IMG/VR virus record: IMGVR_UViG_3300006805_000141
Span: 1-25,581 of that record
Reading direction: 5' to 3' (one strand)
Length of the DNA: 25,581 nucleotides
From: a virus
Position numbers and translations under genes: made by a program. This document shows, piece after piece, positions 9,416 to 25,000 of this stretch; the stretch's first letter is position 1; every line of letters starts with the position of its first letter. The notes under the pieces were generated by a model. That model worked only from the letters and a program-made list of their open reading frames with translations. It had not been told where the DNA came from and did no database searches.

Positions 9416-9961
9416 ATGAGTAAAACAAGACAATTAATCGATTCTATAATGAATGGTAATGGCGAATTAGCTAGAGAAGCTTTCTCTACTGCTATCACTG
9501 ATAAAGTGAATACTGTTCTTGACATTAAGCGTGTTGCTATTACTGCTGACATCTATAACGAATCTGCAGAAGATGAACTCGATGAAGCCACCAAACCCGG
9601 AAGTAAGATCATTATTACTCAAGGCAATCACAAAGGTGAAACTGCTAGAATCGGTGAAATCAACTTGGGTTTACATAAAGATGACAAATCCTATGTAATC
9701 GATCTGCAAAATGGTAGTAATATTACACTTCGTCGTGGAGCTTTTAAACTCGTCGCTGCAGAGAAAATGCGTGAGGAAACAGAAGATGATCTCGACGAAG
9801 CACCAACACCTGGTAAGACTTTTGATATGAAAAAAGTTAATGCAGGTGCTATGAGCCAAGACGAATATAACAAGAAATATAAACTTGGTAAATATCGCCC
9901 TGCTGGTAGTAAGCTTGGCGGTCCAGGTGGACTTTATAATAATCTTGTTAAAAAAGCTTAA
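9416..9961 (+). CDS. Prohead core protein (gp68-like) with an embedded SH3/KOW-like domain
   Basis: 181-aa protein in the slot of the T4 core genes 67/68, between portal and protease. Residues 1-50 ('MSKTRQLIDSIMNGNGELAR ... AITDKVNTVLDIKRVAITAD') resemble the helical N-terminus of gp68-type prohead core proteins. Residues about 60-115 look like a KOW/SH3 barrel: PGSKIIITQGNHKGETARIG, a variable turn, then YVIDLQNGSNITLRRGAFKLV. This domain is bracketed by near-identical motifs DELDEATKPG (54-63) and DDLDEAPTPG (124-133). Each contains L-D-E, which fits the (L/I)-x-E cleavage rule of the gp21-type protease, so the domain could be cut out during head maturation. The basic C-terminus (140-181) is Gly/Lys-rich. 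The assignment to gp68 is by position and N-terminal pattern; the KOW reading is by pattern only. Confidence 0.62.
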   Translation: MSKTRQLIDSIMNGNGELAREAFSTAITDKVNTVLDIKRVAITADIYNESAEDELDEATKPGSKIIITQGNHKGETARIGEINLGLHKDDKSYVIDLQNGSNITLRRGAFKLVAAEKMREETEDDLDEAPTPGKTFDMKKVNAGAMSQDEYNKKYKLGKYRPAGSKLGGPGGLYNNLVKKA

Positions 9962-10605
9962 TGAAATTAATTACAGAACATAATGACGTAAATATTCAAT
10001 ACGTCACCGAAAGCGTTGGAACTGAAAAGAATGTCTTCATCGAAGGCGTCTTCATGCAGGCTGAACGAGTGAATAAAAATCGCCGTATCTATCCACGTCA
10101 AGTTTTAAAAGAAGCTGTTCACAAATATGTGACAGAGCAAGTTATGTCTGGTCGTGCCGTTGGTGAACTTAATCACCCAGATGGTCCTAGTATTAACTTG
10201 GATAAAGTTTCGCATCGCATCACAGAACTTAAATGGACTGGTGATGACGTTGTTGGGAAGGCACTCATTCTGAACACACCGATGGGTAAAATTGTGAAAG
10301 GACTAATTGAAGGTGGTGTTCGTCTAGGTGTATCCAGTAGAGGTATGGGAACGGTTGAGTCACGCGGTGGTTCAACTTATGTCAAGAGTGATTTCTTACT
10401 GGCAACAGTTGATATTGTTCAAGACCCTTCTGCTCCTGCTGCTTTTGTTAATGGGATAATGGAATCGGTATCATGGATCTATGAGAATGGTATCTTTAAA
10501 CCGAGCCAGATTGAAAATTATGTGACCGAAATTAAGAAGACACCTGCTTCTCGGATTGCCGAGGCTCAAGTAAGAATCTTTAACGATTTCCTCACCAATC
10601 TCTAA
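9961..10605 (+). CDS. 21: Prohead core protease gp21
   Basis: 214-aa maturation protease (T4 gp21 family, serine protease with a herpesvirus-assemblin-like fold). It is packaged in the core, activates itself, and cleaves scaffold, core and capsid proteins at (L/I)-x-E sites before DNA packaging. Candidate catalytic residues are His72 in ELNHPDGPS, Ser125 or Ser126 in LGVSSRGMGTVES, and Asp151/Asp155 in TVDIVQDPSAP. An 'NKNRRIYP' segment at 39-45 is also typical of the family. The ATG overlaps the stop of the preceding core gene by one base (TAATG), implying coupled expression. All expected key residues are present and the length is normal. Confidence 0.94.
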   Translation: MKLITEHNDVNIQYVTESVGTEKNVFIEGVFMQAERVNKNRRIYPRQVLKEAVHKYVTEQVMSGRAVGELNHPDGPSINLDKVSHRITELKWTGDDVVGKALILNTPMGKIVKGLIEGGVRLGVSSRGMGTVESRGGSTYVKSDFLLATVDIVQDPSAPAAFVNGIMESVSWIYENGIFKPSQIENYVTEIKKTPASRIAEAQVRIFNDFLTNL

Positions 10606-16861: not shown

Positions 16862-16893
16862 GAAAATAAGTTCGTCGATATGAAAAATAATTC

Positions 16894-20448: not shown

Positions 20449-20475
20449 GTTCTCATAGCTAACTGCTACTACATT

Positions 20476-20748
20476 ATGAAAAACAAATTGACTGTCGCCC
20501 AACAAACTGAAGCATCGACCATCACCGGAGCCTTTGGTGAAATCAAAATCAACCCAGCTTATGTTAAGACATACACGACCAAAGAAAAGGTCGTTGCTCG
20601 ATTGAAAGACCTCGGCATTCTTGACGCTGGTGTTTGGCACATGGTGATCCCAACGCAGTGCGGTCGTTGGACAGCAGTCCTTTTCGGAACTCAAGTGATC
20701 CGAGATTTTGGTATGAATACAGGATTCAAAATCGTTGCTTGCGGTTAA
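20476..20748 (+). CDS. Unknown 90-aa protein
   Basis: I do not recognise a family. The protein is compact, soluble and mixed alpha/beta: a polar N-terminus, 'TTKEKVVARLKDLGILDAGV' as an amphipathic helix and turn, then a tryptophan-containing beta segment 'WHMVIPTQCGRWTAVLFGTQ' and a C-terminal 'FKIVACG'. No signal peptide or membrane segment. It is the first gene after the 55-47-46 operon and has its own promoter and 21-nt leader of the shared type. It is followed by a hairpin and a second small gene with the same leader ending. The shared promoter suggests expression with the VWA gene; function cannot be inferred. Confidence 0.72.
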   Translation: MKNKLTVAQQTEASTITGAFGEIKINPAYVKTYTTKEKVVARLKDLGILDAGVWHMVIPTQCGRWTAVLFGTQVIRDFGMNTGFKIVACG

Positions 20749-20781: not shown

Positions 20782-20803
20782 TCTTTCAAACCACTACTAC
20801 ATT

Positions 20804-21061
20804 ATGAAAAAACTTCCAGAACAAGTTAATATCGATCTTATGGGCAAACACGGATTTGAAGCAGTCCATTGGTTTTTCAAGACCGACGCTGTCCAATATG
20901 GAGTTGCTCTAAAAGATGGTGGTGTTTGGAATTTAACTTATTCACATGCTCGCAATCGCCTGAAAGGAACTCAAGGTTTTCCACAAATCACAGGTTCACC
21001 TACTCCAGGTCTTAAAGCAAAGCTGAATGAAGCTAAGGAATGGGTCATTGAAAATTTCTGA
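20804..21061 (+). CDS. Unknown 85-aa protein
   Basis: Unrecognised small protein. 'LMGKHGFEAVHWFFKTDAVQ', 'GVALKDGGVWNLTYSHARNR' and a C-terminal amphipathic helix 'LKAKLNEAKEWVIENF' suggest a small alpha/beta domain. The start at 20804 is preferred over an in-frame site at 20735, because 20735 lies inside the previous gene while 20804 follows the leader ending ACTACTACATT shared with neighbouring genes. There is no obvious own promoter, so it is probably read through from the 20421 promoter past the hairpin. No Shine-Dalgarno sequence. Confidence 0.68.
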   Translation: MKKLPEQVNIDLMGKHGFEAVHWFFKTDAVQYGVALKDGGVWNLTYSHARNRLKGTQGFPQITGSPTPGLKAKLNEAKEWVIENF

Positions 21062-21070
21062 AAATAATTC

Positions 21071-21098
21071 TTTACAAACTTTGAATTTCTGATAACTT
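21071..21098 (+). promoter_or_regulatory. Promoter for the VWA/HExxH gene (TTTACA-16-TAACTT)
   Basis: Preceded by AAAATAATTC as at 20411 and 23369. Predicted +1 near 21105 leaves a 21-nt leader ending CAACTACATT before the ATG at 21126, the same spacing as at the 90-aa and 89-aa genes. Confidence 0.55.
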
Positions 21099-21125
21099 GT
21101 CTAAGTAATCGACTGCAACTACATT

Positions 21126-23360
21126 ATGAAAGCAAACTTTAATCACCAATCACTACTTGCCAAACTTCTGGCTAAGGAGAATATCACTGTTCACTCGGGT
21201 AATTACCACACGGCGTTTTTCGATGTTAAGAACCGCCTGCTAGGTCTTCCAACATGGAATATCGATAACAAGCAAGTTTCCGATTTGTTAGTCGGTCATG
21301 AAGTCAGCCACGCTCTTCATACACCATTAACTGGTCTGGATGATTTCAGAAAGTGTCTCCCAACTTGTCCCTTCGATGTTTTCAATATCGTGGAAGATAT
21401 TAGAATTGAACGATTGATCCAAGACCAATATCCAGGTCTCATTTCTTCCTTCGTTAGCGGATACCGTTACTTCATTGAAAATGATTTTTTTAAGATCAAG
21501 GGCAAGGATGTATCCAAGATGCCTTTCATCGACCGTCTGAATCTTCGCGGTAAGATTGGAATGTTAATGTCGATTCCTCTATCGATAGCTGAAGAAACTA
21601 TTTATCGGAAATGTTTGAAGGCAGATACTATTAGCGATGTTATCGACATCTGCAATGAAATTTACACACTGGAGAAAGACAATCTCTCCAAAGAAAACCA
21701 ATCTCCAGAAGATAAGCAGTCTGAAGACACACTGACTGTTCCAGATTTTGACAATCAAGATCAAGTGGTTTCAATTTCAAATCCTCCAACAGGTGATACA
21801 GGTAAAAGTGATTCTGAAAATAATGGAGATGAAACCGATGAGTCTGGATCCGAAACAGAGAATGGTGAATCAGAAACTCAATCGAATGATCCAGAAGGAA
21901 CTCCCACGGAAGGATCTGGTGGTAGTACCTCTGGATTTGCAGATGTGAATGAAAGACTGAAATCAAAGACACTTTCCGATCTTGACAAAGAATTGAACAA
22001 GATTCAATCCGATGCAACCATTGAAAAGCAGATTGTAACTCCATTCAAGGAACATATGATGCGCCAAGTCACACCAGTTGATGAGGTAATGCAATCACGG
22101 ATCGGTCATAGAAATTATTCAAACTTCAATCGCATTGAAGTAACCGAAGATTGGTTGAAATTCAAAGCATCTACCAAAAAGTCTGTCGGTATTCTCGTTA
22201 AGGAATTTGAGCGCCGTAAAGCTGCTTTTCAATACTCCCGCGCTCGACAGAATACAACTGGTTCTATCGATGTGAACCGACTTCATTCATACAAATATGA
22301 AGATCAGATTTTCAAAAGCGTGATGCAACTCGCTGACGCAAAAAGCCACGGGATGATGTTCTTCATCGACTATTCCAGCTCAATGTACCGAGACATTCCA
22401 AATGTGATTAACCACACTTTGAATCTTTGCTTCTTCTGTAAAGCAGTTGGTATCCCCTTTGAAGTTTATGGTTTTACCAATTGTTATCCAAAAGCTGATG
22501 ATGAATATTCCAAGATCAATTCAAACCAAATCTCTTTCCGATATACTGGAGTATTTGAGCTGTTGAACTCTTCTATGAAGAAAGACAAATATGATCTGGC
22601 ATGCCGCCAACTACGTGCCCAAGCTTTTCTACTTGATGATTCACTTAACCAGCACGATGCGGGTGTCTTTAGTTCGTATGAGATGATGTGTGGCACTCCA
22701 CTCTATGAAACCATTATCATTGCTCATGAGCTAGTGAATCAATTCAAGATGAAGCACAAGATTCAAAAGATGAATGTTATCTTCTTAACCGATGGTGACG
22801 GCGCTTCGCTTGGTTTTGGTAACAATCAAGAGACTGAAAAGTATGTAAAGAAAGGTACTCAATACAGCGATAAGTACATCATGAAATTAAATGGTCGGAC
22901 GGTACATCTTTCCCGTTCTCCACAAGTTTGCTATGCAGCCCTTATTAAGAACTTGAAGATCACGTGTGGTGCCACGGTAATCGGTTTCTTCATTACTTCA
23001 TCTAAAAACGGAATGCAAAACTCTGCGATCAATTCTCTCCGTTACAATAAAGGAATCAATAATGTATCTGGATGGACCGAAGCAGCTGAAAAGATCAAAA
23101 AGCTGATGGTAAAATATAAGAAAGACAAATGCTTATTGATTGAAGATGGTTTCAACTTTGATCAATATATTACCTTTAACGCCCGCGGTGATTTCAACAT
23201 TGAAGATGAGAATGAAGACTTTGATCCAGATTTCGATATGAATGGCAAGTTCAGTTCTGCCGCAGCCCAGAACAAGTTAGCTAAAGCCTTCACAAAGCAC
23301 ACTTCAGACAAGCGCACAAGTCGAATCGTTATGAACAAATTCGCTGAACTTGTTTCTTGA
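21126..23360 (+). CDS. VWA-domain protein with N-terminal HExxH motif (CobT-like partner of the MoxR/CobS-like ATPase)
   Basis: 744 aa. The N-terminal domain (1-180) has H58-E-V-S-H62 in 'LLVGHEVSHALHTPLTG', a zinc-peptidase-type HExxH, and 'FNIVEDIRIERLI' (E90, D91, E95), which could supply a third metal ligand. Residues 185-270 are an acidic Ser/Glu/Asn/Gly linker. A helical segment (275-400) leads into a von Willebrand A domain whose MIDAS motif is D415-Y-S-S-S (FFIDYSSSM); 'MNVIFLTDGDGASLGF' supplies a further MIDAS-type aspartate. The C-terminus is acidic (DENEDFDPDFDM). The layout resembles MoxR-associated VWA proteins and CobT. A CobS/MoxR-like ATPase follows 440 bp later. The family occurs in aquatic T4-like phages; its substrate is unknown. 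Whether HEVSH is catalytic is inference. Confidence 0.8.
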   Translation: MKANFNHQSLLAKLLAKENITVHSGNYHTAFFDVKNRLLGLPTWNIDNKQVSDLLVGHEVSHALHTPLTGLDDFRKCLPTCPFDVFNIVEDIRIERLIQDQYPGLISSFVSGYRYFIENDFFKIKGKDVSKMPFIDRLNLRGKIGMLMSIPLSIAEETIYRKCLKADTISDVIDICNEIYTLEKDNLSKENQSPEDKQSEDTLTVPDFDNQDQVVSISNPPTGDTGKSDSENNGDETDESGSETENGESETQSNDPEGTPTEGSGGSTSGFADVNERLKSKTLSDLDKELNKIQSDATIEKQIVTPFKEHMMRQVTPVDEVMQSRIGHRNYSNFNRIEVTEDWLKFKASTKKSVGILVKEFERRKAAFQYSRARQNTTGSIDVNRLHSYKYEDQIFKSVMQLADAKSHGMMFFIDYSSSMYRDIPNVINHTLNLCFFCKAVGIPFEVYGFTNCYPKADDEYSKINSNQISFRYTGVFELLNSSMKKDKYDLACRQLRAQAFLLDDSLNQHDAGVFSSYEMMCGTPLYETIIIAHELVNQFKMKHKIQKMNVIFLTDGDGASLGFGNNQETEKYVKKGTQYSDKYIMKLNGRTVHLSRSPQVCYAALIKNLKITCGATVIGFFITSSKNGMQNSAINSLRYNKGINNVSGWTEAAEKIKKLMVKYKKDKCLLIEDGFNFDQYITFNARGDFNIEDENEDFDPDFDMNGKFSSAAAQNKLAKAFTKHTSDKRTSRIVMNKFAELVS

Positions 23361-23368
23361 AATAATTG

Positions 23369-23399
23369 AAAATAATTCTCGACATTCTCGGATTTTGAG
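23369..23399 (+). repeat. 31-bp promoter repeat, copy 2
   Basis: Identical to 20411-20441. Similarity continues imperfectly into the leaders (TTCTCATAG versus TTTCATAG), so promoter and leader look duplicated together. Confidence 0.9.
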
Positions 23400-23406
23400 T
23401 TAATCT
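23379..23406 (+). promoter_or_regulatory. Promoter for the 89-aa gene (TCGACA-16-TAATCT)
   Basis: Same -35 and spacer as the 20421 promoter. Predicted +1 near 23413 and again a 21-nt leader to the ATG at 23434. Confidence 0.55.
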
Positions 23407-23433
23407 GATTTCATAGTTCAAACCACTACTTCA

Positions 23434-23703
23434 ATGTACAACCTCATTACCCACTCAGTCTATACCGAAACCTATGATACCGAAGGTCAGCTTCGCCAAG
23501 CACTCGCTGAAGGTGCCAAGTTCGCCATTGAGTTTGCCGATAACAAGTTGGCGAATGCAGGTATCATCTACCTGACGGATACCATCGAAAATGCCCGATT
23601 GATCTTTAAAAAGTATCGGGACTTTTACAGCATGGCTGATGTGCGTGAATACCAAGATCAAGATCTGAATGGTTACAAGTCGTTGTTCAGCGGCTGGCTT
23701 TAA
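23434..23703 (+). CDS. Unknown 89-aa protein between the VWA and ATPase genes
   Basis: Not recognised. The sequence is a mixed alpha/beta pattern: 'MYNLITHSVYTETYDTEGQL', helix 'RQALAEGAKFAIEFADNKLA', strand 'GIIYLTDTIENARLIFKKYR', and a C-terminal aromatic segment ending 'GYKSLFSGWL'. No membrane segment or metal motif. It sits between the two presumed partner genes and carries the same promoter-leader cassette as the VWA gene, so co-expression is likely and it may be an accessory to that pair. This is guilt by association only. Confidence 0.72.
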   Translation: MYNLITHSVYTETYDTEGQLRQALAEGAKFAIEFADNKLANAGIIYLTDTIENARLIFKKYRDFYSMADVREYQDQDLNGYKSLFSGWL

Positions 23704-23715
23704 TATCAACTGTCC

Positions 23716-23743
23716 TAAGCACGATATAAAACTGCTTATTTTT
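23716..23743 (+). terminator. Weak intrinsic terminator / hairpin TAAGCA-TGCTTA-TTTTT
   Basis: 6-bp stem (23716-23721 / 23733-23738), 11-nt loop, then TTTTT. Homologous to the hairpin at 20760. It lies just before the CobS-like promoter and could separate the two transcripts. Confidence 0.45.
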
Positions 23744-23755
23744 GAATAAAAGTTC

Positions 23756-23784
23756 TTGACATATCCTAAAAAATTTAGTACATT
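23756..23784 (+). promoter_or_regulatory. Promoter for the CobS-like gene (TTGACA-17-TACATT)
   Basis: Perfect -35, optimal 17-bp spacer and a good -10. Predicted +1 near 23791 gives a 13-nt leader. It shares TTCTTGACATATCCTA with the minus-strand promoter at 16752-16779. Confidence 0.77.
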
Positions 23785-23803
23785 CTCCTTACCACAATAT
23801 ATT

Positions 23804-25000
23804 ATGAAATCCGAAATTGCAAATACAATCGCCGATCTTCGCCAATACTCCGAAGACATGATCATCGATGAGCCTACAATCTTCGCTGCTGGATGGCGCA
23901 ATGGCATGACTCACTCTTCTATTAAGGAAGCATTCATTCAACCCCAATTTGAAGTCCGCAAGGGAGTCTATAAGGTTGGTGCAACTTGTCTGAATGAAGT
24001 GACTCCAGTCACAAAGCAAGATGCACTCTATGAGAATAATGAAACTACACTAATGATGGCAATTCCACAAACTAAAGTCGAATCAACTAAAGTCAACCTG
24101 ATCTCATCTTCCGTAAATGAAGATGTTTATATCCCAGAGGTTGACCGCACATTTGTCCAATGGGGTGAATATGCGACAGTAAAGAAAATTATTGATTCCA
24201 ATATGTTCTTCCCGCTATATATTAGCGGCATGAGCGGTAACGGTAAGACCATGATGGTTGAACAAGCTTGCGCCAAAGCCAAGCGTGAATATATCCGAGT
24301 TCAGATTTCACCAGAGACAGATGAAGATGATCTCATCGGCGGATTCCGACTTGTTAATGGCGAAACCATTTTCCACAAAGGTCCAGTAATCAAAGCGATG
24401 GAACGTGGTTGCATTCTCCTCATCGATGAGCTTGATCGTGGTTCAAATAAAATCATGTGTCTTCAAGGAGTCCTTGAGGGCAAGCCAGTCCTAATCAAGA
24501 AGATCGGTGAGGTAATTCGACCAGCAGCAGGATTCAATGTAATCGCCACTGCAAACACCAAGGGACGTGGTTCTGAAGATGGTCGATATTCAGCAGCGAA
24601 CATTATCGATGAAGCCTTTATCGAACGGTTTGTGGCTACCATTGATCAACCCTATCCGGGTAACACTATCGAACATAAGATCATCGCCAAACACATGGAA
24701 GCATTCGATGTCGATGATTCAGAATTCTGCGACAAGCTCATTGCCTGGTCTCAGGTTATTCGTAAAACGTATGAAAGCGATGGTGTGGATGAAGTTGTCT
24801 CAACTCGCCGTCTGTGCCATATCGTCAAGGCTCACTCCATCTTTAATGACCGTATGAAATCGATCATGATGTGCATCTCTCGATTCGATGATGAAACTCG
24901 GTCCGCCTTCATCGATCTTTACACTAAGATTGACGCTGAACCAAAGCCAGTAGAACTTACGGTTGAAGATACATCCAAAGTAGATTACGCCCCGTATTAA
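23804..25000 (+). CDS. CobS/MoxR-like AAA+ ATPase
   Basis: 398 aa. Residues 1-110 form an N-terminal domain that I do not recognise. The AAA+ core has Walker A GMSGNGKTM (142-150), Walker B ILLIDELD (204-211), sensor 1 in ATANTKGRG (N251), a 'DEDDLIGGFRLVNGETIFHK' loop typical of CobS/MoxR, and 'STRRL' as the likely sensor 2. It is commonly annotated CobS in T4-like phages, but no cobaltochelatase large subunit is seen in this window, so a MoxR-type remodelling role with the VWA protein upstream is more likely. The start at ATG 23804 is chosen because the in-frame TTG at 23756 falls in the promoter -35. Confidence 0.88.
   Translation: MKSEIANTIADLRQYSEDMIIDEPTIFAAGWRNGMTHSSIKEAFIQPQFEVRKGVYKVGATCLNEVTPVTKQDALYENNETTLMMAIPQTKVESTKVNLISSSVNEDVYIPEVDRTFVQWGEYATVKKIIDSNMFFPLYISGMSGNGKTMMVEQACAKAKREYIRVQISPETDEDDLIGGFRLVNGETIFHKGPVIKAMERGCILLIDELDRGSNKIMCLQGVLEGKPVLIKKIGEVIRPAAGFNVIATANTKGRGSEDGRYSAANIIDEAFIERFVATIDQPYPGNTIEHKIIAKHMEAFDVDDSEFCDKLIAWSQVIRKTYESDGVDEVVSTRRLCHIVKAHSIFNDRMKSIMMCISRFDDETRSAFIDLYTKIDAEPKPVELTVEDTSKVDYAPY

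Follow-up and report, generated by a model that had tools for sequence, protein, structure and literature searches.

Among the systems that pair an AAA+ ATPase with a VWA-domain protein, NorQ-NorD serves the maturation of nitric oxide reductase. In NorQD, the pore of the ATPase ring holds a finger of the VWA protein, and the linker to the N-terminal domain is stretched by ATP-driven rotation, which opens the client (PMC13036017). Midasin/Rea1 also combines an AAA ring with a VWA domain bearing a metal-ion-dependent adhesion site (MIDAS) to pull on its clients, but it is a single giant eukaryotic protein that acts on ribosome precursors. In viruses, a cobST cluster was described by Liu et al. 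2021, who called the 'peptidase' label of the cyanophage protein a mistake for CobT and proposed that viral cobST hijacks the host CobN (PMC8651126). Cyanophage cobS belongs to the core genes of marine T4-like phages, serves as a community marker, and is routinely counted as a B12 auxiliary metabolic gene (PMC3037559, PMC9983427, PMC9146016). One of these reports calls it 'cobalamin synthetase', apparently confusing the cobaltochelatase ATPase CobS with its Salmonella-type namesake (PMC9983427). The locus considered here lies in a 25.6-kb viral contig of a T4-like phage (IMG/VR record IMGVR_UViG_3300006805_000141, positions 1 to 25,581, hereafter the window) and encodes a VWA protein followed by a MoxR/CobS-type ATPase. 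It is a real feature and a new member of a viral family already known, the accepted label of which is probably wrong. The fuller reading, in which a MoxR-VWA remodeller akin to NorQD carries a zincin-like head, has a client that would probably lie in DNA replication or recombination, and is not a chelatase, has about an even chance of being right.

The pair and its family membership are already known, because the two proteins match PHROG 459 and PHROG 249 and correspond to the viral cobST of Liu et al. 2021; the first-pass annotation, which suggested an undescribed system, was preceded by both. The VWA protein matches PHROG 459 ('peptidase') over residues 6-743, and the ATPase matches PHROG 249 ('porphyrin biosynthesis', CobS) over its residues 91-379. 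Both genes occur in equal numbers of cyanophage-named records, with 365 Synechococcus, 61 Cyanophage, and 24 Prochlorococcus records each (~450), and the pair is also found in pelagiphage HTVC008M. In related viral loci that reach both genes (87 pairs), the two share a strand and the VWA gene stands directly 5' of the ATPase gene, with a median gap of 89 bp. The pair of T4-like cyanophages and pelagiphages agrees with the pair in the window in its two proteins, in their gene order and linkage, and in the gp46-gp45 locus, while the VWA protein here is only about 30% identical to those of isolated phages and an unrelated 89-aa open reading frame (ORF) is inserted between the genes. What is new is the invariance of HEVxHA and [ED]DxRIE and the comparison of HExxH across phages, plasmids, and integrating elements. 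A literature search returned no paper naming DUF3150 or a phage MoxR-VWA system, and defence-system models gave no convincing match.

The VWA protein is laid out as a zincin-like N-terminal domain (residues 1-192), an acidic linker (193-268), a helical region, and a MIDAS-bearing VWA domain (about 406-744). None of 44 non-redundant T4-like VWA homologues departs from HEVxHA or from the [ED]DxRIE that follows it; N87, D91, and R93-I94-E95 are likewise invariant, and all of the MIDAS residues D415, S417, S419, T524, and D556 are retained in 44/44. Composition alone predicts 0.02 HExxH motifs in the protein, and the HEVSH and MIDAS motifs are not due to chance, since they are invariant across the homologues. 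In the predicted structure (mean pLDDT, the predicted local distance difference test, 75.9), strands 21-25, 31-33, and 38-42 precede the helix carrying HEVSH and the helix carrying NIVEDIRIE, which is the element order of small gluzincins; the acidic linker (about 193-268) has low confidence. The sequence and the model together place HExxH inside one helix and a downstream Glu inside a second, the gluzincin-type arrangement. The best solved fold match is the NorD VWA chain 9qh6_G (Z 17.2, 253 residues, 5.1 A), aligned over 300-744, followed by the midasin MIDAS domain (Z 15.7). No CobT chain appeared among the fold matches, although the fold library may predate the solved CobT entries, and the VWA profile found only low-complexity matches on the acidic linker among PDB sequences.

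The ATPase carries Walker A (GMSGNGKT at 142) and Walker B (CILLIDE at 203), and its model resembles CbbQ (Z 23.7) and NorQ (Z 22.9); the CbbQ/NorQ matches range from Z 23.7 to 20.1, and the next group stands at 15.3. Profile matches to the PDB include CobS 9ujv (E 4e-27) and midasin/Rea1 (E 8.9e-46 summed over 4 domains). The features of the MoxR type are found together, namely an AAA_5-type ATPase with Walker A and B, a CbbQ/NorQ-like predicted fold, and an adjoining gene for a VWA protein with an intact MIDAS. The earlier description of an intact CobS/MoxR-type ATPase beside a VWA protein with HEVSH, an acidic linker, and an intact MIDAS was confirmed by these results. The TTG at 23756, which a mechanical ORF call took as the ATPase start, was rejected because it belongs to a promoter-like TTGACA-17-TACATT site, and ATG 23804 is the preferred start.

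Together, the products of the two genes very probably make up a single MoxR-VWA remodelling machine of the NorQD/CobST type. Among solved structures, NorD is the best fold match of the VWA half and NorQ one of the two best of the ATPase, but the client of NorQ-NorD is different, HExxH is not reported for NorD in PMC13036017, and the sequence identity is low. NorQD-like mechanics are suggested because the phage protein has the same order of N-terminal domain, acidic linker, and VWA domain with MIDAS. In such a machine, the ATPase would form a hexameric ring, on which the VWA protein would dock with a loop or finger reaching into the pore, and the MIDAS would grip the client. Driven by ATP hydrolysis, a twist of the VWA domain relative to the N-terminal domain, passed on by the acidic linker, would loosen the client. 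The zincin-like head would stand in place of the NorD N-terminal domain; its HExxH...E set is intact, so that the head may be a zinc binder and could cleave the client or keep hold of it. An active zinc peptidase is conceivable from the motifs, with the balance leaning somewhat against it.

The HExxH motif is shared widely by the VWA partners of mobile elements. It is found in Rhizobium, Ochrobactrum, Gordonia, Vibrio ICP2, Roseobacter CRP-810, and Bacteroides phages, and also in partners encoded by integrative and conjugative elements (ICEs) and plasmids and by E. coli phage-plasmids. Profile comparison aligns the T4-like VWA proteins with the CobT set collinearly from the N-terminal domain into the VWA domain (99.3%, E 1.3e-20), and the T4-like N-terminal domain with the ICE/plasmid VWA proteins (99.0%, E 5.3e-18), both being pairwise E-values uncorrected for database. 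The VWA protein of an E. coli phage-plasmid matches both CobT Pfam models (3.2e-27, 1.6e-81) and has HEVAH, and by its sequence it appears to be a bridge between CobT and the HExxH forms. In chelatase CobT, the motif is degenerate (HDARVH in Sinorhizobium, HNPRIH in the solved CobT 9uka), while the downstream ExARVE, the counterpart of NIVEDIRIE, is kept. The economical reading is that CobT has a zincin-like N-terminal domain and that its zinc site presumably degenerated along the chelatase line and in a few other lines. A wider proposal is rather unlikely. It sees the MoxR ring and a VWA protein with an active zincin head as ATP-driven metalloproteases or remodellers of a widespread class not yet recognised, directed at DNA replication and recombination complexes by phages, phage-plasmids, and ICEs, and it derives chelatase CobT from this class by loss of the zinc site. 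The cross-element comparison is the main worth of this analysis, and it makes function testable in E. coli K-12, on which the SSU5-like phage PhiR41_1 is listed; E. coli has no CobN.

Gene neighbourhoods bear on the client, as most lineages carry the pair within modules for replication or recombination. In T4-like phages the pair lies between gp46/47 and the sliding clamp, and in DLP6 it stays together although it is outside the gp46-gp45 slot, following DNA polymerase, UvsX, and primase/helicase. In phage-plasmids and siphophages it is near dnaE, ligase, primase, and 5'-3' exonuclease, and in ICP2 near primase, helicase, and polymerase. ICEs and plasmids of Vibrio, Shewanella, Marinomonas, Alteromonas, Providencia, and others carry bet/recT, exonuclease, AAA, DUF3150, and VWA genes. 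Like the phage pair, this module has a CobS-like ATPase and a VWA protein with a HEAAH-type motif and NIIEDxRIE, but its order is reversed and DUF3150 lies between, whereas no DUF3150 was seen beside the phage pair. The bet-exo-AAA(CobS-like)-DUF3150-VWA(HExxH) arrangement was noticed at L097 (11180-15770) and in loci L118-L143, on conjugative plasmids and in chromosomal loci resembling SXT/R391-type ICEs. A client in the phage or host DNA replication/recombination apparatus, not hydrogenobyrinate, is tentatively favoured among the candidates, at somewhat less than an even chance. If remodelling or proteolysis linked to DNA metabolism is what the pair does, the widespread ecological annotation as a B12 auxiliary metabolic gene is wrong.

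Several observations weigh against a zincin-headed machine acting on DNA replication or recombination. Fold matches cover residues 342-744 of the VWA model and so lie outside the N-terminal domain, for which a zincin fold is proposed from the motif, the order of the helices, and conservation. HExxH is degenerate in the partners from an Acinetobacter phage-plasmid (DQEVAK), Stenotrophomonas BUCTxx99 (DREVST), and Pseudomonas nickie, which means that catalysis is not universally needed. The neighbourhoods in Gordonia and Roseobacter CRP-810 are uninformative, and Methylophilales phage Melnitz lacks the pair in its gp46-gp45 interval, which implies that the machine is useful and not essential to T4-like replication. 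In modular phage genomes, neighbourhood is weak evidence, and the neighbourhoods described here are suggestive only.

The alternative that survives best is a MoxR-VWA chaperone with no special tie to DNA, in which the head binds zinc structurally or serves as a client platform, and which matures or dismantles a host or phage metalloenzyme or complex. The nearest folds, NorD, NorQ, and CbbQ, are consistent with it (compare NorQD for nitric oxide reductase and CbbQO for Rubisco), as are the members that lost HExxH and yet kept the pair and the uninformative neighbourhoods. However, it does not sit easily with the recurrent replication and recombination neighbourhoods in T4-like phages, ICEs/plasmids, and phage-plasmids, nor with a catalytic-type Glu59 that does not vary across the T4-like family, and it is judged unlikely, though a serious candidate.

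The published proposal of viral CobST (Liu et al. 2021, PMC8651126) holds that the pair gives CobS and CobT to the host CobN, boosting cobalt insertion and B12 supply. It draws on the homology of the ATPase to CobS and of the VWA protein to CobT, with collinear CobT and a shared ExxRxE motif, and on the presence of CobN in the cyanobacterial and haloarchaeal control genomes. On the other hand, the ATPase scores 63 bits against the curated CobS model TIGR01650, whose cut-off is 558.55, and the VWA protein has no Pfam match at E<=1, including CobT PF06213 and PF11775. CobN is absent from the window, from 9 complete public phage/plasmid records, and from one 170-kb IMG/VR contig carrying such pairs. 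It is also absent from the E. coli control genome, although E. coli phage-plasmids carry the pair and PhiR41_1 has the HExxH version. Matches to the ribonucleotide reductase model TIGR02504 in 8/10 records are all below cut-off, and no class II reductase was found above it; these matches were rejected as support for B12, as the two phage reductases inspected are nrdA/nrdB, annotated as class Ia in the E. coli plasmid. Class Ia reductases as a class need no B12. The proposal also leaves unexplained the HExxH motif that separates the mobile-element partners from chelatase CobT. The pair probably does not work as a cobalt chelatase, and supply of CobS and CobT to a host CobN is improbable. The doubt already cast on the cobalamin label is supported, given that none of the complete elements tested has CobN and that the curated CobS and CobT thresholds are missed. 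In the Caulobacter vibrioides control, a match to CobT family PF06213 was found with no match to CobN PF02514, possibly a chromosomal CobT without a chelatase subunit.

A virion maturation protease is suggested by an HExxH motif in a T4-like phage beside the structural gene block, but it is very improbable, as a prohead-protease-like gene already occupies the gp21 position, the pair sits in the gp46-gp45 block behind sigma-70-like promoter cassettes, and ICEs and conjugative plasmids, which build no virions, also carry it. The adaptor role proposed for the 89-aa product, which lies between both genes behind a shared promoter cassette and has a small gene at the same place in DLP6 as a parallel, can hardly be credited, since no homologue was found among 50,697 phage records, PHROGs, Pfam, or related viral loci, and the median gap of 89 bp leaves most relatives without room for an intervening gene. 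Of the three genes whose synteny in T4-like phages had been put forward for survey, the VWA/ATPase pair is kept and the 89-aa gene is absent from related loci. The first-pass annotation is thus partly supported: the MoxR/CobS-type ATPase, the VWA partner with an invariant zincin-type HExxH, and the doubtful cobalamin label stand, and the undescribed system and the adaptor do not.

Features of the locus in the window (coordinates of the 25.6-kb contig)
Feature	Position	Strand	Remarks
VWA protein, 744 aa	21126..23360	+	ATG start; phrog_459, E 1.7e-151; fold match NorD VWA
HEVSH, residues 58-62	21297..21311	+	zincin signature in helix 49-65; conservation and model helix
NIVEDIRIE, residues 87-95	21384..21410	+	helix 83-101; candidate third zinc ligand region
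MIDAS DxSxS (D415, S417, S419)	22368..22382	+	with T524 and D556, intact metal-ion-dependent adhesion site
89-aa ORF	23434..23703	+	lineage-specific, not a conserved part; no homologue found
MoxR/CobS-type AAA+ ATPase, 398 aa	23804..25000	+	ATG start; phrog_249, E 4.1e-110; AAA_5
Promoter-like cassette AAAATAATTCTTTACA	21061..21076	+	5' of VWA gene
Promoter-like cassette AAAATAATTCTCGACA	23369..23384	+	5' of 89-aa ORF
Sigma-70-like promoter TTGACA-17-TACATT	23756..23784	+	just 5' of AAA+ gene; 10/12
gp21-position prohead-protease-like gene	9961-10605		flanked by portal and capsid genes; position assigned by T4 gene order

The window contains terminase, tail, portal, and capsid-type genes, and gene names follow T4 order wherever no family search was made. 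After the structural genes come UvsY (phrog_231) and UvsW-, sigma-, gp47-, and gp46-like genes, and then the VWA/ATPase pair. The nearest relatives of the capsid protein are those of Melnitz and pelagiphages (<60% identity). A 201-aa predicted protein at 525-1130, among the structural genes, resembles a GIY-YIG homing endonuclease by eye. CobS-like ATPases of Staphylococcus and Listeria phages were rejected as the same pair, their partners being DUF7192 and not VWA proteins; the DUF7192 protein follows the ATPase at 7837-8682 in L103 and at 7042-7953 in L105.

The promoter cassette of the first-pass annotation was borne out. The cassette AAAATAATTCTYKACA occurs exactly at 16884, 20411, 21061, and 23369, always on the + strand and just 5' of a gene, and with <=3 mismatches it gives 10 matches vs 2.9 expected, a number reached in 0/100 shuffles; a copy with 3 mismatches lies at 23746. 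Copies stand directly 5' of the sigma-factor-like gene and other early-type genes. The TTGACA-17-TACATT site is weak when taken alone, as 17 promoter-like sites were found in the region vs 12.2 expected. A start-site leader, CTACTACATTATG, with no obvious Shine-Dalgarno sequence, is repeated before three genes (20461-20483, 20789-20811, and 21111-21133), and may hint at the type of host.

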